A DNA stretch of 64,000 nt from Halogeometricum sp. S3BR5-2. GTDB taxonomy: Archaea; Halobacteriota; Halobacteria; Halobacteriales; Haloferacaceae. Shown here one piece after another: positions 6,861 through 50,151 of the stretch. Numbering within the stretch: position 1 is the first letter of the stretch; each line of letters starts with the position of its first letter. The notes under the pieces are model-generated. The model saw only the letters and a program-made list of their open reading frames with translations, was not told where the DNA came from and did not search any database. The stretch covers positions 1-64,000 of the forward strand of contig NZ_JAMQOQ010000006.1 of assembly GCF_031624635.1 (NCBI RefSeq). The letters are read 5' to 3'. The position numbers and the translations under genes were made by a program.

Positions 6861-7772
6861 ATGGTGCGGAACGTCGCGGGCGTGATGGCGGAACTCGAAG
6901 CCGAGGACTTCTACCTCCTGTCGGGCGTCGAACAGGGGATGCGCTTCGGCGAGTGGGTGAACCGCGGCAAACTCCCCGAACTCTCGGGTCTGACGGCCGA
7001 GAACGTGGAGTACCGACTGAACCGCTGTATGCGCCGCGACCTGGTCGAACGCAAGACCATCCAGTACGAGGGGTACAAACTCGCCGTCGAGGGCTACGAC
7101 GCCCTCGCACTCCGCACGTTCTCGAAGCGGGATACGATTCAGGGGGTCGGCGCCCCCCTCGGCGTCGGCAAGGAGAGCGACGTGTTCGAGGTGCAGTCGT
7201 ACAAACCGTTGGCGCTGAAGTTCCACCGTGAGGGGTACACGAACTTCCGCGAGGTGATGCGCGAACGCGAGTACACCTCCGAGAACCAGCACGTCTCGTG
7301 GCTCTACACCGCCCGGAAGGCGGCCGAACGGGAGTACGAGGTGCTCGAAGACCTCTACCCCGACGTCGCGGTGCCGCGGCCAATCGACCAGAACCGCCAC
7401 GCTATCGTGATGGACAAACTCGCCGGCGTCGAACTCGACCGGGCGAAACTGGAGTCCGAGCAGGTGGTCGGCGTCTTCGACCTCGTGGTCCGGGAAGTCG
7501 CCGGCGCCTACGAGGCGGGGTACGTCCACGCCGACATGAGCGAGTACAACGTCGCCGTCGGCGAGGAGGGGGTGACGGTCTTCGACTGGCCGCAGGCGGT
7601 CGCCACCGAACACGACAACGCGCGCGAACTGCTCGAACGCGACGTGAAGAACCTCCTCGACTACTTCCGCCGCAAGTACCCCGCCGCGATGCCCGAGGAG
7701 GTGGACTCCTCGTCGCTGTGCGACGCGGTTGCCGCCGACGAGTTCGAGACACTCCGCGCGTTTGCGGTGTGA
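6861..7772 (+). CDS. rio2: RIO2-type atypical serine/threonine protein kinase
   Basis: The 303-residue product has the RIO2 layout. An N-terminal winged helix (about 1-85) includes the stretch ending KLAVEGYDALAL. The RIO kinase domain has the glycine loop GVGKESDVF (101-109), the ATP-binding lysine K120 in LALKFHREG, the catalytic loop HADMSEYN with D225 and N230, and the metal-binding D242 in VFDWPQ. RIO2 kinases act as ATPases in late maturation of the small ribosomal subunit. Length is normal for archaea and all catalytic residues are present. It is monocistronic by spacing. Confidence 0.95.
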   Translation: MVRNVAGVMAELEAEDFYLLSGVEQGMRFGEWVNRGKLPELSGLTAENVEYRLNRCMRRDLVERKTIQYEGYKLAVEGYDALALRTFSKRDTIQGVGAPLGVGKESDVFEVQSYKPLALKFHREGYTNFREVMREREYTSENQHVSWLYTARKAAEREYEVLEDLYPDVAVPRPIDQNRHAIVMDKLAGVELDRAKLESEQVVGVFDLVVREVAGAYEAGYVHADMSEYNVAVGEEGVTVFDWPQAVATEHDNARELLERDVKNLLDYFRRKYPAAMPEEVDSSSLCDAVAADEFETLRAFAV

Positions 7773-42832: not shown

Positions 42833-44695
42833 ATGCTGAATTATATGTCCCGTGACGAAGTGATTTCAGACAGAATGTCCCGGCTGGCAACACTCGTGGT
42901 CGCCCTCCTGCTCGTCACGGCGGGCTGCACCGCTGCGGGTACGCAATCGGCATCCTCCGACCGCGATATCGTGAGGAGCAACGAATCGGTAGACAGCACG
43001 GCGGCCGAATCGGCGGGCGAGGAGGCCGCCGCCTCCGCGGCCTCCGCGACGGCGACGGACGCTCGGTCCGCGACCGCTCCCGCGACGGACGCGGGCGAAA
43101 CGACGGCGAGCGATGACGCGGAGACGACGACGCAGACGCAGTCGCAGTCGAACGAGGACCCCTCCTCGGACTCGGACGACGAGTCCTCCTCCGACGACGA
43201 GTCGAGTGCGTCGAACGGCGGCGCGTCGGACTCCTCCACCTCCGACGGCACGTCGGACGCTGACGCCGAAACCGACGACACGTCCGAGAGTGAAACGGCG
43301 ACTACCGGCGACGAGACGGCTGCGTCGTCCGCGAGCGCCCTCGAAGCCGAGACCGAAGTGCGGACCGAGTGGAACGTGACTGTCACGACGGTCGCCGACG
43401 GCGACAGCCTCCTCGTGGAGTTCCCCGACGGTCGCCTGGAGAAAGTTGACCTCGTCGGCGTCGACGCCCCCGACGGCGACTACAGCGAAGACGACTTCAA
43501 CGGGATGGTGACGAAGGACGGCGGCGAAGCGTGGCTGAACGACTGGGGCGGCAAGACCACCGGCTTCGTGAGCGACGAAATCGGCGGGCGAGAGGTGCGA
43601 ATCCACGTGGATTCGGTCGCGGACCGCCGCGACGACTCCGGCACCCTCCAAGTGTACGTCGACGATGGCGACACCGCCACGCTAAACGCCGACCTGATAG
43701 AGCGCGGTTACGCGGAAGTCGCCGACTACCAGTTCTCGAAGAAGACCGAGTTCGAGCAGGAAGAGCAGAACGCCCGTCACGGCTACGACGGCCTCTGGCG
43801 CTTCTACGAGTCGGACCCCCTCGCGGGCCTCCCCGACGCGGACGACGAGACCGAGACCGAAACGCCGACTGAGACTGAGACTGAGACCGAGACCGAAACG
43901 CCGACTGAGACTGAGACTGAGACCGAAACTGAACCCGAACCGCAGACCGAGTGGACCGTGACGGTCACGATGGCCGCCACGGGCGACAGTCTCCTCGTGG
44001 AGTTCCCCGACGGTCGCCTAGAGAAAGTTGACCTCGTCGGCGTCGACGCCCCCGACGGCGACTACAGCGAAGACGACTACCGCGGCATGGCCACCGAAGA
44101 GGGCGGCGAGGCGTGGCTGAACGACTGGGGCGGACAGGCGACCGGATTCGTCGCCCGCGAGGTCGAGGGCCGAGAAGTCACCATCTACGTGGACTCGGTC
44201 GCGGACCGCCGCGACGACTCCGGCACCCTTCAGGTGTACGTCGACGACGGCGACACCGCTACGCTCAACGCCGACTTGGTCGAACGCGGCTACGCCCAAG
44301 TCGCCGACTACCCGTTCTCGAAGGAGGACGAGTTCGAGCAGGAAGAGCAGAACGCGTATCAGGGTTACAACGGCCTCTGGCGCTTCTACGAACCGAACCC
44401 GCTCGCCGGTCTTCCCGAGTCGGACGAAGAGACGAGCGAGGAGACGGTGACGGAGACGGAAACAGAGACCGAGACGGAACCCGAGGTCGAATCGACGACC
44501 GAAACCGAAACGGCGAGTGAGACCACGACGGAGACCGCGGTCGAGACCGAGACCGCCACCGAGACCGCGACCGAGACGGCAGTCGAAACCGAAACCGTCA
44601 CCGAGAGCGAGACGGAGAGCGACGAGACGGCGACGGCGACCGCCGCGGAGTCGACCCCGTCCGAGACCGAGGCGCCGACGAACGCGAGCGCGTGA
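42833..44695 (+). CDS. Lipoprotein with two tandem staphylococcal-nuclease-like domains
   Basis: A 620-residue exported protein. After MLNYMSRDEV a signal with lipobox TAGC (about residue 31) anchors it, and a Ser/Thr/Asp/Glu-rich stalk follows. Two SNase-like domains occupy about residues 182-335 and 375-530; a Glu-Thr repeat linker separates them and another Glu/Thr-rich stretch ends the protein. Conserved strands include DLVGVDAPDGDY, GYAEVADYQF and LWRFYESDPLAGLP. In copy one the calcium Asp pair D189-G-D191 is intact, but R35, T41, E43 and R87 of S. aureus nuclease align with D206, A212, D214 and S269. In copy two D189 is T383. Catalysis is therefore doubtful in both. The start uses a GGAG box. 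Confidence 0.8.
   Translation: MLNYMSRDEVISDRMSRLATLVVALLLVTAGCTAAGTQSASSDRDIVRSNESVDSTAAESAGEEAAASAASATATDARSATAPATDAGETTASDDAETTTQTQSQSNEDPSSDSDDESSSDDESSASNGGASDSSTSDGTSDADAETDDTSESETATTGDETAASSASALEAETEVRTEWNVTVTTVADGDSLLVEFPDGRLEKVDLVGVDAPDGDYSEDDFNGMVTKDGGEAWLNDWGGKTTGFVSDEIGGREVRIHVDSVADRRDDSGTLQVYVDDGDTATLNADLIERGYAEVADYQFSKKTEFEQEEQNARHGYDGLWRFYESDPLAGLPDADDETETETPTETETETETETPTETETETETEPEPQTEWTVTVTMAATGDSLLVEFPDGRLEKVDLVGVDAPDGDYSEDDYRGMATEEGGEAWLNDWGGQATGFVAREVEGREVTIYVDSVADRRDDSGTLQVYVDDGDTATLNADLVERGYAQVADYPFSKEDEFEQEEQNAYQGYNGLWRFYEPNPLAGLPESDEETSEETVTETETETETEPEVESTTETETASETTTETAVETETATETATETAVETETVTESETESDETATATAAESTPSETEAPTNASA
43402..43496 (+). repeat. First copy of a near-identical 95-bp segment in the nuclease-like gene
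   Basis: These 95 bp match 43984-44078 with only two differences, while flanking parts of the two domains have drifted more. The offset is 582 bp (194 codons), in frame. Confidence 0.85.
43984..44078 (+). repeat. Second copy of the near-identical 95-bp segment
   Basis: Partner of the copy at 43402-43496. It contains the domain strand with the D-A-P-D sequence. The shared nucleotide identity suggests recent duplication or gene conversion. Confidence 0.85.
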
Positions 44696-44859
44696 GGACG
44701 CGGACGGCGTCCGGCCGAAGAACGAATTCGATTTTTACGGCACCGACGCCCCGCGAGCGGCGTCTCTGTTCGGAGTGTGCGTGTGATTCGCACACATCGT
44801 TCTCGGCAGGCGGGAGTTACCGGTATCCGATATGTAGCGGCGGCGACGAGGGTGAAGTG

Positions 44860-46008
44860 ATGAAGGGTGAAATCGGTGCTCCCGGGGACGGAATCTCGCG
44901 ACGACAGTTCCTCGCCGCGACGGGGTCGACGGGCGTGGCCGCCGCGGCCGGGTGTCTGACCAGTTCGACGCCGACGGTCACGAAGGTGGACCCGGCGGGG
45001 GCCGCGGCGCAGGTCGCGAGCGACCTCCCGACGACCGGACGGCCGGAGGTGGTCGACCTCGAAGAACGGGGCAACCACGTGACGCTGAGAGCGGTGAACG
45101 CGGTGCACCACGTGCACCCGGGCGAGACGATGAACGGACCCATCACACTCCCCGTCGTGTGGGCGTGGCAGGCCGACGACGGGACGCCGTCGGTGCCGGG
45201 ACCCATCCTCCGGGTCACGGAGGGACAGGAGTTCAGCGTCACCCTCGACAACACGGGGATGGACATGCCGCACACGTTCCACGTCCACGGCCTGCGGAAG
45301 ACGTGGGAGAACGACGGCGTGCCGACGACGACGGGCGTCACCGTCGAACCCGGGCAGAAGCACACCTACGAGTTCACGGCCAACGTGGCGGGGACGCACC
45401 TGTACCACTGCCACTACCAGACGCCGCGGCACATGGACATGGGGATGTACGGCGTCCTGCGGGTCGAACCCGAGGGGTACGAGCGCGCCGACAAGGAGTA
45501 CTACATGACGGTCAAGGAGTGGGACACGCGCCTCTCGCGGCAGTACGGCGGCGAGGACGTCGTCTACGACATCACCGGTCGACAGATGGACACGTTCACC
45601 GTCAACGGGAAGTCGGCGCCGGCGACGTTCCACCCCGAGACGGGGTCGCCCCTCATCGTCGACCCCGGCGACACGGTCCGCATCCACTGGGTGAACGGCG
45701 GCTTCCAGGCGCACCCGATGCATCTGCACAACCACCGCTTCCGCGTCGTCGAGAAGGACGGGTCGCCCATCCCCGAAGCGATGCAGATCGAACAGGACGT
45801 GGTGAACGTCGCGCCCGCGGAGCGCTACACGATAGAGTTCGAGGCGGACGCCGACCCCGGCATCTACCTCGTCCACTGCCACAAGGTCGACCACGTCCGC
45901 AACGGGTCGTCGTACCCCGGCGGGATGCTCACGGCCGTCGTCTACACGCCCGTCATGGACACCGACCTGTTCAAGCGGGTGATGGCGTACGCGGGGTACG
46001 AGGCGTAG
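44860..46008 (+). CDS. Two-domain multicopper oxidase
   Basis: A 382-residue exported protein with twin-arginine signal (SRRQFLAATGSTG) and lipobox AAGC. Domain one (about 55-210) holds HTFHVHG and HCHYQTPRHMDMGM; domain two (about 230-375) holds HPMHLHNHRF and HCHKVDHVRNGSSYPGGM. Both domains carry an H-C-H and later His and Met, so each may bind type 1 copper, with the trinuclear cluster between subunits as in type A two-domain oxidases. The substrate may be a phenol, Cu(I), Fe(II) or nitrite-like compound. The ATG at 44860 follows a GAGGGTGAAG purine box. The halocyanin gene starts 2 nt after its stop. Confidence 0.88.
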   Translation: MKGEIGAPGDGISRRQFLAATGSTGVAAAAGCLTSSTPTVTKVDPAGAAAQVASDLPTTGRPEVVDLEERGNHVTLRAVNAVHHVHPGETMNGPITLPVVWAWQADDGTPSVPGPILRVTEGQEFSVTLDNTGMDMPHTFHVHGLRKTWENDGVPTTTGVTVEPGQKHTYEFTANVAGTHLYHCHYQTPRHMDMGMYGVLRVEPEGYERADKEYYMTVKEWDTRLSRQYGGEDVVYDITGRQMDTFTVNGKSAPATFHPETGSPLIVDPGDTVRIHWVNGGFQAHPMHLHNHRFRVVEKDGSPIPEAMQIEQDVVNVAPAERYTIEFEADADPGIYLVHCHKVDHVRNGSSYPGGMLTAVVYTPVMDTDLFKRVMAYAGYEA

Positions 46009-46010
46009 CC

Positions 46011-47039
46011 ATGACCGACTGCACGCGGCGGGACGTGCTCGCCGGCACCGGCGCGCTGGTCGGGGCGGGACTCGTCGGCGGACCGTTCCTCGCGCGTCCG
46101 GTCCGCGCCGCGGAGGAGACGGACCTGACCGAGTGGTTCGCGAAGACCGACGGCGCCGACGCCGTCGTCGACGCTACCGGCGAGAGCGAAGTCGCGGTAG
46201 AAGTGGGCTCGCCCGGCAACGGCGGCGACTTCGGGTTTTCGCCCCCCGTCGTCCGCGTCGACCCCGGCGCGACCGTGACGTGGGAGTGGACGGGGGCGGG
46301 CGGCAGCCACAACGTCGTCGCCGAGGACGGGTCCTTCGAGTCGGCGTACCACTCCGAAGCGGGCGCGACGTTCTCGGCGGACGCCCCCTCGTCGGGCGTC
46401 GTCCCTTACGCTTGCGTACCCCACTCGGCGATGGGGATGCGGGGAGCCCTCGTCGTCGGCGACGCCGCGGTGACGCTTCCCGGCGGAGCCGGAGGGGAGA
46501 GCGGGTCCGATGCCGGCGCTGGCGGCGGAGACGGTAACGCGGAGAAACCGTCGTTCGACGGCTGGTTGGACGGCACGGACAACTACGACGGCGTCGCGGA
46601 CCGCCGCGGCGAGTCGGAGGTGACCGTCGAAGTCGGCGCGATGGGTAACGGCGGCGAGTTCGCCTTCGAACCCGCGGCGATACGCGTCGACCCGGGCACG
46701 ACCGTCGTCTGGGCGTGGACGGGGACCGCCGGCGCCTACGACGTGGTTGACGAGGAACTCGGCTACGCGAGCGAACGGGTCCGCGGGACGGGCCACGAGT
46801 TCGCCCTCGCGTTCGACGGCGACGGCCTCTCGAAGTACGAGTGCACGACGTACGCCGACCGCGGGATGCGCGGCGTCGTCATCGTCGGCGAGGGGCCGGT
46901 GGACACGCTCACGCCGCGGGGCGTCGCCGCCGTCGCCGGCGCGACCGGACTGCTCGCGGCCGTCGGGGCCGCGGGACTCAGACTGCACCTACAGACGTCG
47001 TCGCAGTACGACCCGAACGCCGACGCCGGCGACCGCTGA
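46011..47039 (+). CDS. Double halocyanin-domain copper protein
   Basis: A 342-residue exported protein with a twin-arginine-like signal (MTDCTRRDVLAGTG), two cupredoxin domains and a C-terminal membrane helix (about residues 315-330). Domain one has all type 1 ligands: H100 (GSHNVV), C135, H138 and M143 (YACVPHSAMGM). Domain two keeps C278 and M286 but has Y243 and Y281 where the histidines should be (GAYDVV, YECTTYADRGM), so it should not bind copper normally. It starts 2 nt after the oxidase stop and is a likely electron partner of that oxidase. The second domain may be structural or bind a partner. Confidence 0.9.
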   Translation: MTDCTRRDVLAGTGALVGAGLVGGPFLARPVRAAEETDLTEWFAKTDGADAVVDATGESEVAVEVGSPGNGGDFGFSPPVVRVDPGATVTWEWTGAGGSHNVVAEDGSFESAYHSEAGATFSADAPSSGVVPYACVPHSAMGMRGALVVGDAAVTLPGGAGGESGSDAGAGGGDGNAEKPSFDGWLDGTDNYDGVADRRGESEVTVEVGAMGNGGEFAFEPAAIRVDPGTTVVWAWTGTAGAYDVVDEELGYASERVRGTGHEFALAFDGDGLSKYECTTYADRGMRGVVIVGEGPVDTLTPRGVAAVAGATGLLAAVGAAGLRLHLQTSSQYDPNADAGDR

Positions 47040-47050
47040 GCGGCGTCGGC

Positions 47051-47344
47051 TCAGTCGACGTTCGGCGCTTTTTCGTCGGTCCGACCCGGCAGCTCTATCT
47101 CGATTTCGAGCTCCGGTTCGCCGACGCCCTCGAAGTCTATCTCCAGTTCGACGGGTTCGCCGAACGCGAAGGGAAGCTCCCACTCGTCGGTCGAGAGGGT
47201 GAGTTCGTCGCCGTCGCGGAGTTGTTCGCCGAGTGCGACGAGGAACTCTCCCGCCTCGATGGCGTCGAGTCGGAACTCCTGTTCAAAGTCGCGTCCCGAC
47301 CGGATGACGGTCCGCTCGGAGTCGGTCTCGGGGTCGTCGCTCAT
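47051..47344 (-). CDS. Amphi-Trp domain protein
   Basis: A 97-residue acidic protein matching the amphi-Trp pattern: SGRDFEQEFRLDAIEAGEFLVALGEQLRDGDELTL followed by VELEIDFEG and a tail rich in Glu. Such proteins are small, haloarchaeal and of unknown role; some are linked to stress. Its ATG overlaps the stop of the 57-residue gene by 4 nt, and both share one iron-box promoter. Confidence 0.85.
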   Translation of the reverse strand: MSDDPETDSERTVIRSGRDFEQEFRLDAIEAGEFLVALGEQLRDGDELTLSTDEWELPFAFGEPVELEIDFEGVGEPELEIEIELPGRTDEKAPNVD

Positions 47345-47514
47345 CGTTTTTCACCCACGTCGAGCGTGAGGTCGCTGGCTATCCAGCCGTCGGCGTTCCC
47401 CGATTCGAGGAACACCGACCGACCGGGACGGCTCTCGCAGACGGATACCTGGGGCGCAGCGGCCGATTCGGACTCGGTCGTCCCCTCCTCTGACAGTCGT
47501 CGTTCGACGCTCAT
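47341..47514 (-). CDS. Small conserved-looking haloarchaeal protein (57 aa)
   Basis: Found by hand translation: MSVERRLSEE, an Asp/Glu/Ser-rich first half, then VFLESGNADGWIASDL and TLDVGEKR. The V-F-x-x-x-G-N-x-x-x-W-I-x-S-D motif resembles a short domain seen in other haloarchaeal proteins whose function is unknown to me. Its stop overlaps the start of the amphi-Trp gene (ATGA). Nine bases before the ATG is an iron-box palindrome. High coding quality (no rare codons, acidic) supports it despite its size. Confidence 0.7.
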   Translation of the reverse strand: MSVERRLSEEGTTESESAAAPQVSVCESRPGRSVFLESGNADGWIASDLTLDVGEKR

Positions 47515-47522
47515 CGCGAGTG

Positions 47523-47538
47523 TTTAGGCGGGCCTAAA
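47523..47538. promoter_or_regulatory. DtxR-family iron box upstream of the amphi-Trp operon
   Basis: TTTAGGCGGGCCTAAA is a 7-bp inverted repeat (TTTAGGC/GCCTAAA) around a 2-base centre. It lies at the transcription start region of the 57-residue gene (start at 47514). The pattern TTAGG-N-CCTAA is that recognised by DtxR/IdeR and archaeal Idr/SirR repressors, so iron-dependent repression is likely. Confidence 0.65.
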
Positions 47539-47591
47539 GTGAAAAAGGAAGCGGTTCGAGTCGGCGGGAATGGGCGGGGCCGAGAGGACGG

Positions 47592-47762
47592 TCACCGAGC
47601 GTCCGTGTCGGTGCCGGTGTCGAGGTCGGTGTCGGATTCCTCCCCGTCGGCGCTGTCGTCGCCTCCGCCGTCGGTCGCCTCGCCCCCGGCGGAGAACCCG
47701 AACAGCGAGAGCAACGCCCACGCCCACGCGTCGCCGCGGGTCCGCCGCGCGTCGCTCGTCAT
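47592..47762 (-). CDS. Small acidic protein (56 aa) coupled to the upstream gene
   Basis: Found by hand translation: MTSDARRTRGDAWAWALLSLFGFSAGG followed by a Gly/Asp/Glu/Ser tail. Residues about 12-24 include WAWALLSLFGF, a possible membrane-associated patch. Its ATG overlaps the stop of the 332-residue gene by 4 nt (ATGA), so it is co-translated. No family recognised. Confidence 0.6.
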   Translation of the reverse strand: MTSDARRTRGDAWAWALLSLFGFSAGGEATDGGGDDSADGEESDTDLDTGTDTDAR

Positions 47763-48757
47763 CGGCTCTCACCCGCCGGTCGAATCCGAGCGCACGTCAG
47801 CCCCGCCGGTTCGTCCGTCGCGGAGAACGCGAACGCGACCCGCCAGCCCTCGTCCGTCTCGGTCACGCGGAGCGCCGACGGCGGGCGGTCGGGCCGGCGA
47901 CGCGAGAGTTCGAGGACGACCGGGAGCACGGGGAGTCGGCCGTCCCGCGCCGAGAGCGCGTAGCCGGAGACGTCCGCCACCACGGTCCGCGCGCCGTCGG
48001 TCGACGCCGCGGATGCCGGGGGCGCCGACGGACGGCTGTAGTCGCCGACGAGGCCCAACTCGCGGAGGCGGGCGAGCGTCGCCGTCACCGACGCGTCGGT
48101 TCCGTCGCGTGTCTCGTCCCCCTCCGCCGGCGCGGGCGCCGCGGCGCCGGCCCGGTCGGTCGGAACGTCGGGGGCGAGTCGGTCGGCGGCGCGCGCGAGC
48201 ACGTCCGCCTGCTCGGCGGGCGAGAGCCGTCCGTCGAGTTCCGTCGCCATGCTCTCGAGGAGGCACAGACAGAGGTCGTCGGGGTCGGGGACGCACTCGG
48301 CGAGTTCGAAGTAAGCGTCCATCACCGCCGTCTCGACGGCGCCGTACCCCGCGTCGGAGAGCGTCTCGAACACCGCCGCCGCGACGCCGTGACAGAATTC
48401 GACGCGCCGCGACCGGACGGCGTCGCCCGCGGCCGCTTCCCGCGGGGCGGAACCCGCGGCGTCGAACGGCGTCCGCTTCCCGTTCGCGGCGTCGGTTCGC
48501 GGACGGCCGGGTGCGCCGACGCGCTGGCAGACGACGAGGTCGTAGAAGGGGAGTTGCGGGTCGTACCGGCGGAGCGCCGTGCGGTACTGTTCGGCCGCCC
48601 GCGCGGCGTTCCGCGCGACGGCGCGGCTCTCGAAACGCCGGCCCGCGACCGGAACCGGCCGCTCGCCGGTGCGCCCGCAGACGAGGGCGAACTCCCCCTC
48701 GTCGTCCGCCAGCGCTTCGACGTGTTCGCGTATCTCGACCAGCGTCGTTCCGACCAT
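47759..48757 (-). CDS. Haloarchaeal protein of unknown function under an iron box (332 aa)
   Basis: The N-terminus (MVGTTLVEIREHVEALADDEGEFALVCGRTGERPVPVAG) has a beta-strand pattern similar to a small haloarchaeal domain. The centre has cysteines in LVVCQRV and EFCHGVA, and the segment LCLCLLESMATELDG; the tail has ALRVTETDEGWRVAFAF. No catalytic motif is recognised. A GGAGGT box 6 nt before the ATG (48764-48769) indicates a leadered mRNA starting near the iron box 72 nt further upstream. It begins an operon with the 56-residue gene. Its iron regulation suggests a role in iron or redox handling (inference). Confidence 0.7.
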   Translation of the reverse strand: MVGTTLVEIREHVEALADDEGEFALVCGRTGERPVPVAGRRFESRAVARNAARAAEQYRTALRRYDPQLPFYDLVVCQRVGAPGRPRTDAANGKRTPFDAAGSAPREAAAGDAVRSRRVEFCHGVAAAVFETLSDAGYGAVETAVMDAYFELAECVPDPDDLCLCLLESMATELDGRLSPAEQADVLARAADRLAPDVPTDRAGAAAPAPAEGDETRDGTDASVTATLARLRELGLVGDYSRPSAPPASAASTDGARTVVADVSGYALSARDGRLPVLPVVLELSRRRPDRPPSALRVTETDEGWRVAFAFSATDEPAGLTCARIRPAGESR

Positions 48758-48828
48758 CCGGCTACCTCCGCCCCGCGTCGGAACGCCGCGTCGGTTCCGC
48801 TCCGTTCGTCGCCTCGCCGAGCATACTC

Positions 48829-48844
48829 TTTAGGCTAGCCTAAA
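48829..48844. promoter_or_regulatory. Perfect DtxR-family iron box upstream of the 332-residue gene
   Basis: TTTAGGCTAGCCTAAA is a perfect 16-bp palindrome, the same half-site as in the box at 47523-47538. It lies between the stop of the transporter gene at 48871 and the start of the iron-box gene at 48757, so it controls the latter. Confidence 0.75.
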
Positions 48845-48870: not shown

Positions 48871-50151
48871 TCAGTCGCTCGCGGCCGTCTCGCTCGTCCG
48901 ATTCGACGACTGGACGCGTCCGATGCGCCAGCGGAGGACGAGGACCGTGACGAGTCCGAGGACGAGGGCCGCGTTCATGACGTACAGCGCGCTCGTGTAG
49001 TTGCCCGTCGCCTCGAGGACGAACGAGGCGAGTTGCGGGCCGGCGACGCCCGCGACGCCCCACGCGGTGAGGGCGTAGCCGTGGATGGCGCTGACCTCGT
49101 CGGTGCCGAAGAGGTCGCTGAGGTACGCCGGGAGACAGGCGAACCCGCCGCCGTAGCAGGTGATGACGAGGAACATGACCGCCGCGAGCGTCCAGACGGC
49201 CGTTATCGCCGGCATCACGAAGAAGGCGACTATCTGGATGACCATGAACGCCCCGTACGTGGTCGTCCGGCCGACGTAGTCGGAGAGCGTCGACCAGAAG
49301 ATGCGGCCGCCGCCGTTGAAGATGCCGATGTAGCCGGTGATGAACGCCGCCGTCGTCGCCGTCGCGCCGCCGACCTGCTGGAGCATGGGCGAGGCGAACG
49401 CGAGCAGCATGATGCCCGCGGAGACGTTGATGAAGACGATGAGCCACACCATCCAGAAGCGCGGCGTCGTCCGCGCCTGCTTCGCGGTGAGGTTGTCCAG
49501 TCCCGACAGCGCGCTCTTGGCCTTCTCGTGGGCGTTCTCCTCGTCCTCCATCCCCGCCGGAAGCCACCCTTCCGGCGGCTTCGCGAGGTAACTCGCGCCG
49601 AGCGACATCAGAACGAAGTACAGCACGCCGAGGGCGAAGAACGTCGTCGCGACGTCGGTGCTCTGGATAAGGAAGTTCCCGAGCGGACCGGTCAGGAGGG
49701 CGCCGGCGCCGAAGCCCATGACCGCGAGGCCCGTCGCCATCCCGCGGCGGTCGGGGAACCACTCGACGAGCGTTCCGATGGGGGAGATGTAGCCGAGGCC
49801 GAGTCCCATCCCGCCGACGACGCCGAACGTGGCGAGAAACAGCGGGAGGCTTCCGAGGAGGACGCTGACGCCCGACCCGACCATCCCGAGACCGTACAGG
49901 ACGGCCGCGGACAACCCGGCCAGCCGCGGTCCGTACTCCTCGACGTACTTGCCGAGGAAGGCGGCCGTGATTCCGAGCACGAAGATGGCGATGGAGAACG
50001 CGAGCGTGACGCTCGACGTCCCCCACCCCTGCGTCTCGTTCAGCGGTATCTGGTAGATACTGTACGCGTAGATACTCCCGATGGACAGGTGAATCGCCAC
50101 CGCCGAGAGGGCGATGAGCCACCGGTTTTTGTCCGCCGTCGTTCGAGACAT
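48871..50151 (-). CDS. OFA-family major facilitator (oxalate/formate antiporter-like)
   Basis: A 426-residue twelve-helix transporter. The N-terminal IHLSIGSIYAYSIYQIPLNET and the GGMGLGLGYISPIGTLVEWFPDRRGMATGLAVMGFG motif, followed later by CYGGGFACLPAYLSDLFGT, are typical of the oxalate:formate antiporter family. Members exchange monocarboxylates or take up oxalate; in this neighbourhood substrates linked to the cox-like enzyme are possible. The upstream A/T-rich segment with TTTTGAATTAAC about 30 nt before the ATG is a promoter. Confidence 0.85.
   Translation of the reverse strand: MSRTTADKNRWLIALSAVAIHLSIGSIYAYSIYQIPLNETQGWGTSSVTLAFSIAIFVLGITAAFLGKYVEEYGPRLAGLSAAVLYGLGMVGSGVSVLLGSLPLFLATFGVVGGMGLGLGYISPIGTLVEWFPDRRGMATGLAVMGFGAGALLTGPLGNFLIQSTDVATTFFALGVLYFVLMSLGASYLAKPPEGWLPAGMEDEENAHEKAKSALSGLDNLTAKQARTTPRFWMVWLIVFINVSAGIMLLAFASPMLQQVGGATATTAAFITGYIGIFNGGGRIFWSTLSDYVGRTTTYGAFMVIQIVAFFVMPAITAVWTLAAVMFLVITCYGGGFACLPAYLSDLFGTDEVSAIHGYALTAWGVAGVAGPQLASFVLEATGNYTSALYVMNAALVLGLVTVLVLRWRIGRVQSSNRTSETAASD

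Follow-up and report, generated by a model that had tools for sequence, protein, structure and literature searches.

Gene organization of the locus

The window analyzed here, a 64-kb stretch of the Halogeometricum sp. S3BR5-2 genome, contains two short minus-strand operons of uncharacterized proteins, each headed by a palindromic iron box. By kinship, too, the genus is Halogeometricum: the congeneric genome G158 has the locus recorded for Halogeometricum limi. The features of the locus are the following.

47051-47344, minus strand: 97-aa amphi-Trp domain protein (TIGR04354 and PF20068), ATGA overlap with the p57 gene
47341-47514, minus strand: 57-aa protein p57, DUF7331-like, pattern CExxPGxxVFxESxNxDGWIxxD
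47523-47538, no strand given: iron box 1, TTTAGGCGGGCCTAAA, an exact palindrome that lies 8 bp before the p57 start
47592-47762, minus strand: 56-aa microprotein p56 with an R-x-R-x2-AWAW-x4-LFG core and an acidic tail; its gene overlaps the 332-aa gene at an ATGA
47759-48757, minus strand: 332-aa protein, DUF7552 (residues 5-79) and DUF7551 (residues 118-325)
48762-48824, minus strand: 20-codon ORF, MLGEATNGAEPTRRSDAGRR plus stop, leaderless, with its ATG (48824) 4 bp after box 2
48829-48844, no strand given: iron box 2, TTTAGGCTAGCCTAAA, a perfect palindrome at the head of the DUF7552-DUF7551/p56 operon

A preliminary description of this DNA had reported the two palindromes and an ATGA overlap within each gene pair, and direct reading of the sequence shows both palindromes to be exact and both overlaps to be real. 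Its ORFs and overlaps were correctly drawn, but the amphi-Trp gene lies outside the interval of 47341-48844 that it gave for the module, ending at 47051. It had also taken box 2 to be the control site of the 332-aa operon; the box does head this operon, but it does not adjoin the 332-aa gene, as the 20-codon ORF lies between them and 71 nt separate the box from the 332-aa start, which has a GGAGG ribosome-binding site before it. On the plus strand and convergent with the amphi-Trp gene are a multicopper oxidase gene followed by one for a protein with two halocyanin-type copper domains (44692-47039). Upstream of the 332-aa gene, on the same strand and outside the boxed operon, is a gene for an MFS transporter (48871-50151) whose score passes the NCBIfam threshold for the L-lactate transporter SfMCT (NF049980).

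The domain assignments of the 332-aa protein are secure, with Pfam scores of 120.9 bits for DUF7552 (E 2.6e-35, cut-off 27) and 222.2 bits for DUF7551 (E 7.3e-66, cut-off 52.6). Its AF2 model, of good confidence (pLDDT 86), consists of an N-terminal alpha/beta domain, a bundle of helices, and a sheet at the C terminus. An alignment of 45 members (mean column identity 35%) shows H123 and C163 to be invariant and C27 and C122 to be conserved at 90% or more; these Cys and His residues would fit a metal or cofactor site. A sequence search of the PDB found no solved relative of DUF7551, and a Foldseek search found no convincing fold match. Its operon partner p56, a new microprotein family in which the AWAW-x4-LFG core is conserved, matched nothing in Pfam and NCBIfam profile searches, and its relatives are located after DUF7551-DUF7260 in other genomes.

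The protein p57 resembles the small haloarchaeal proteins of Pfam DUF7331 (PF24018) in its C-terminal pattern with GW and D, but its score is below the family cut-off (E 0.033, 15.1 bits versus 27 bits) and it can only be called DUF7331-like. It differs from that family in forming a subgroup of its own, with boxes and an invariant Cys. The invariant residues in a 32-member alignment are C26, P30, F35, E37, N40, G43, W44, I45, and D48, and a PDB sequence search returned no relative. The 97-aa protein reaches the cut-offs of both amphi-Trp models (TIGR04354: E 1.6e-13, 50.8 bits versus a cut-off of 31; PF20068 likewise), and it is the link to an iron box that sets it apart from other amphi-Trp domain proteins. 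A PDB sequence search gave nothing meaningful for it, and a fold search from its low-confidence AF2 model (pLDDT 62) gave nothing.

The box sequence and its occurrence in the genome

We searched both strands for the pattern TTTAGGCNNNCCTAAA, allowing up to 2 mismatches, and used shuffled versions of the 64-kb window as a chance control. Only 0.04 matches are expected by chance in the window, and no shuffle reached the observed count. The 4.66-Mb genome contains 6 perfect TTTAGGCNNGCCTAAA sites, two of which are boxes 1 and 2, together with 13 one-mismatch and 13 two-mismatch sites, for a total of 32 versus 13 for the reversed control. Both promoters carry the TTAGGC/GCCTAA palindrome characteristic of a DtxR-type, haloarchaeal FerR-like iron regulon, and both have a T-rich TATA-like element followed by the palindrome, with 4 bp (box 2) or 8 bp (box 1) between its end and an ATG. 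This arrangement of TATA-like element, box, and start is the same as that found at the siderophore receptor genes. Boxes 1 and 2 are single, unlike those at many sites in the genome, where boxes occur in pairs ~36 bp apart (e.g. at 7505/7541 of L016 and 5382/5419 of L026). A separation near three and a half helical turns suggests that two repressor dimers occupy such paired promoters.

To see what the remaining boxes mark, 16 stretches around other sites in the genome were examined with genes called by composition. Sites lie 2-5 bp upstream of several siderophore-binding lipoprotein starts (Peripla_BP_2-type; L016, L017, L019, L021, L024, L025, and L026), at a FecCD permease with an ABC ATPase (L017), and upstream of a siderophore-type class-III aminotransferase (L018), a DtxR-family gene (L022), a DUF7260 gene (L019), and a DpsA-like gene (L029), while one 2-mismatch site is upstream of a ZIP-like gene. 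The DpsA and siderophore-type aminotransferase labels come from our reading of the sequences and the other labels from profile matches. Thus, the site that heads the two operons also heads iron-uptake genes of the same genome. In Haloferax volcanii, a 'ferR regulon signal' precedes all fhu (siderophore) genes and operons, and several fhu-encoded proteins are more abundant under iron starvation (PMC11349517). From the siderophore and iron genes behind the other boxes, together with the H. volcanii ferR signal at fhu, we conclude that the boxes belong to an iron regulon.

DtxR-family repressors with metal-ligand motifs are encoded in the genome, which has three full-length DtxR-family proteins with intact motifs (HRLLE and EVHDEA..LEHH). 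Their closest solved relatives include the Mn-responsive MntR, ScaR, and SloR, and with several full-length candidates present, the box alone does not settle iron versus manganese control. There is also a short DtxR homologue (C2:450177; L022:6166-6570) with tandem iron boxes at its head, which has relatives at L211, L216-L221, and L249-L287 and is linked to DUF7551 and p57 in other genomes. This protein lacks the ligand residues of a metal-responsive DtxR regulator: the canonical positions H79, E83, H98, E105, and H106 (DtxR numbering) are replaced as H->Y, E->S, H->E/Y/H, E->A, and H->G when compared with 8pvt/5zr4. To judge from these replacements, it seems incapable of the usual kind of metal binding.

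Conservation of the two operons

The p57/amphi-Trp operon is widely conserved together with its box. Among 38 amphi-Trp loci, p57 lies directly before amphi-Trp in 29, every one of which has the box. The remaining loci comprise three without p57 but with a box of their own, two inside FecCD/ATPase- or SBP-DUF7551-amphi operons, and four that have no box and no iron operon upstream. When viewed from p57, a box is found within 80 nt upstream of 38 of 40 distinct genes, compared with 0.015 expected from dinucleotide shuffles, although the p57 loci are mutually related and the 40 are not a count of independent events. Across 32 p57 loci, the box precedes the ATG by 2-9 bp, in most cases by 7-9 bp; a TTTTT (TATA-like) element at -31 to -27 is just upstream of the box, and the flanks are weakly conserved. 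The boxed p57 loci span many genera of the window's family as well as other families (Haladaptatus, Halomicrobium, and Halosimplex), so the site is conserved before orthologues in other species.

Of the 391 genomes of the class, 219 encode DUF7551. We surveyed 80 GTDB loci (79 scored), counting neighbors within 4 kb and boxes within 350 bp upstream. A siderophore-binding lipoprotein gene is the most frequent neighbor (44 loci), followed by flavin oxidoreductase (26), ABC ATPase (25), DUF7260 (22), and the DtxR homologue and p56 (12 each). The linkage to siderophore receptors, flavin oxidoreductases, DUF7260, and the DtxR homologue extends across haloarchaeal families. A box was found upstream in 34 of these loci, and many of the unboxed DUF7551 genes sit behind a boxed lipoprotein gene in what is apparently one operon. 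The preliminary description had proposed a search for the same four-gene set beside such boxes elsewhere, and the set does recur: the fullest order, DUF7551-DUF7260-p56-DtxR-box-p57-amphi-Trp, is found at L216 and L217, and at L218 with one extra gene inside. In Haladaptatus, the order box-DUF7551-box-p57-amphi-Trp (L288, L289, and L292) follows the plan of the window without p56. In other congeners the two halves lie apart from each other, both of them boxed (L069, L076, L214, and L215), and in congener G359 (L213) an internal deletion took the DUF7551 domain and p56, with DUF7552, both boxes, p57, and amphi-Trp being kept. The module is absent from many relatives. From the deletion and the split congeners, we regard the unit as a regulon whose parts are frequently, though not invariably, found together. 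Box 2 is perfect in L213 and has at least one mismatch in L212. It should be noted that the DUF7551 gene of the latter congener (G407, L212:7826-8808) is apparently frameshifted in the linker, which yields pieces of 223 aa and 162 aa and is possibly a sequencing error.

The last codons of the 20-codon ORF, GGAGGTAG, contain the Shine-Dalgarno sequence of the 332-aa gene, and the ORF has the same length and stop in congeners L212 and L213 as in the window, with the overlap of its end and the Shine-Dalgarno sequence shared by all three Halogeometricum genomes. Leaderless mini-ORFs starting 0-5 nt after a box were seen in the window and in L064, L073, L091, L211, L212, L213, L288, and L292. Of the 33 DUF7551 leaders that are 10 nt or longer, 18 have an ATG 0-5 nt past the box, against a rough expectation of ~8%, an excess that is consistent with leaderless starts. 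Within Haloferax the mini-ORF ATG is not kept, being CTG in 2 of 4 close sequences, and a conserved regulatory role for the mini-ORF was considered and left aside for this reason.

A probable role in the response to iron starvation

The four genes are very probably uncharacterized parts of the iron-starvation response, since both the sites and the siderophore-uptake neighbors are kept across many related genera. The claim that one shared iron box heads two operons of uncharacterized proteins is upheld by the boxes at iron-uptake genes of the same genome and by the near-fixed spacing of the box over many genera. The candidate iron-response module of the preliminary description likewise gains strong support from comparative genomics. 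The wider module, with DUF7260, a DtxR homologue, and siderophore transport, escaped that description, as did the mini-ORF. We consider it probable that the locus comprises two iron-starvation operons of the haloarchaeal DtxR-type (FerR/Idr/TroR-like) regulon and that the encoded proteins are cytoplasmic accessory factors. What the sequences show directly is the identity of the boxes, their rarity, placement, and conservation, and the gene linkage; the regulator, its direction of action, and the biochemistry are inferred, with the direction and the metal taken from the DtxR family. With iron plentiful, a metal-loaded DtxR-family dimer would sit on the 16-bp palindrome between the TATA element and the leaderless transcript start, such that its occupancy would occlude the start and block transcription. 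Once iron becomes scarce, the repressor would leave the palindrome and transcription would resume, with the DUF7552-DUF7551/p56 and p57/amphi-Trp pairs being made alongside the siderophore receptors and transporters. To judge from gene neighborhoods, the most likely function of the four proteins is an accessory one in the cytoplasm, in the use of ferric siderophores or the handling of iron. The DUF7552-DUF7551 protein, with the Cys and His residues conserved in it, is probably a partner of the flavin oxidoreductase and the siderophore importer often encoded beside it, as the linkage of DUF7551 with genes for receptors and flavin oxidoreductases suggests that it acts once the siderophore has been imported; with no solved relative or convincing fold, it is this linkage that points to an accessory role.

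The palindromes might instead be chance matches or promoter-like sequence of no regulatory role, and the box does overlap T-rich promoter sequence. Chance as their source is refuted by the window shuffles and by the count of boxed p57 genes, and with a nearly fixed spacing and conservation over many genera also to be explained, we attach next to no weight to this reading. A further alternative is that the sites serve Mn or Zn through an MntR/SirR-type DtxR paralogue with only an indirect link to iron, for which one could cite the three full-length paralogues, their Mn-responsive solved relatives, and the site before the ZIP-like gene. The perfect sites and tandem pairs, however, head siderophore receptors, FecCD, and siderophore-type genes, all of which are iron genes, and we regard control by Mn or Zn as improbable. 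As for the DUF7551 domain itself, it was conceivable that it is a haem- or NO-sensing H-NOX/V4R-like domain tied to the iron regulon, given that H-NOX structures hold ranks 1, 2, and 4 of the Foldseek search (E 0.38-1.7, prob 0.11-0.30). Every one of these matches is below significance, however, and hhalign profile-profile comparison gave probabilities of only 0.1% for H-NOX and 0.6% for V4R, while H-NOX versus V4R, the positive control, scored 81%. The profile comparison led us to reject this fold, and a sensor of this kind is very improbable.

The alternative that deserves the most attention is a regulatory module, in which DUF7551, DUF7260, and p56 would serve as sensors of iron or siderophore status for the short DtxR homologue, itself unable to bind metal in this reading; in the genome of the window, this partner would work in trans from contig C2. 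The order DUF7551-DUF7260-p56-DtxR (L216, L217, L218, L211, and others) speaks in its favor, as do the tandem boxes of the short DtxR gene and its missing metal ligands. On the other hand, the neighbors of DUF7551 are mostly transport genes rather than the DtxR homologue (44 versus 12 of 80 loci), and no sensor domain was recognized in DUF7551, such that we view this module as unlikely, if still the strongest competitor. The more elaborate form, an iron-sensing relay in which DUF7552-DUF7551, DUF7260, and p56 control the ligand-less DtxR homologue and p57/amphi-Trp serve as a dedicated, separately boxed output, seems to us less likely again. We favor accessory factors of siderophore use or iron handling over either form of signaling module.

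Relation to known iron regulons and implications

The regulatory system itself is an ordinary DtxR-type haloarchaeal iron regulon. Bacterial DtxR/IdeR boxes are dyads with TTAGG half-sites near promoters, a feature shared by the sites described here, as is the presence of DtxR-family regulators in the genome, whereas the haloarchaeal site is a 16-bp dyad that occurs in tandem ~36 bp apart at many sites and in the context of an archaeal TATA promoter. Compared with the haloarchaeal FerR/Idr/TroR iron regulon, the palindrome is of the same TTAGG type and is likewise close to the leaderless starts of genes for siderophore transport; the difference lies in the targets, which here are DUF7552-DUF7551, p56, the DUF7331-like p57, and amphi-Trp. 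No mention of amphi-Trp, DUF7551, DUF7552, DUF7260, or DUF7331 was found in the literature searched, which did not extend to Leyn & Rodionov 2015 and the TroR/Idr papers. As far as that literature goes, these genes are new to the iron regulon, and an earlier listing of some of them is possible.

These results propose a testable physiological setting, namely iron starvation and siderophore use, for five families known only as domains or hypothetical proteins (DUF7551/DUF7552, DUF7260, the DUF7331-like p57, amphi-Trp, and p56), several of which are widespread in haloarchaea. Furthermore, a boxed, module-linked DtxR homologue that apparently lacks the usual metal binding bears upon how iron regulation is layered in haloarchaea.
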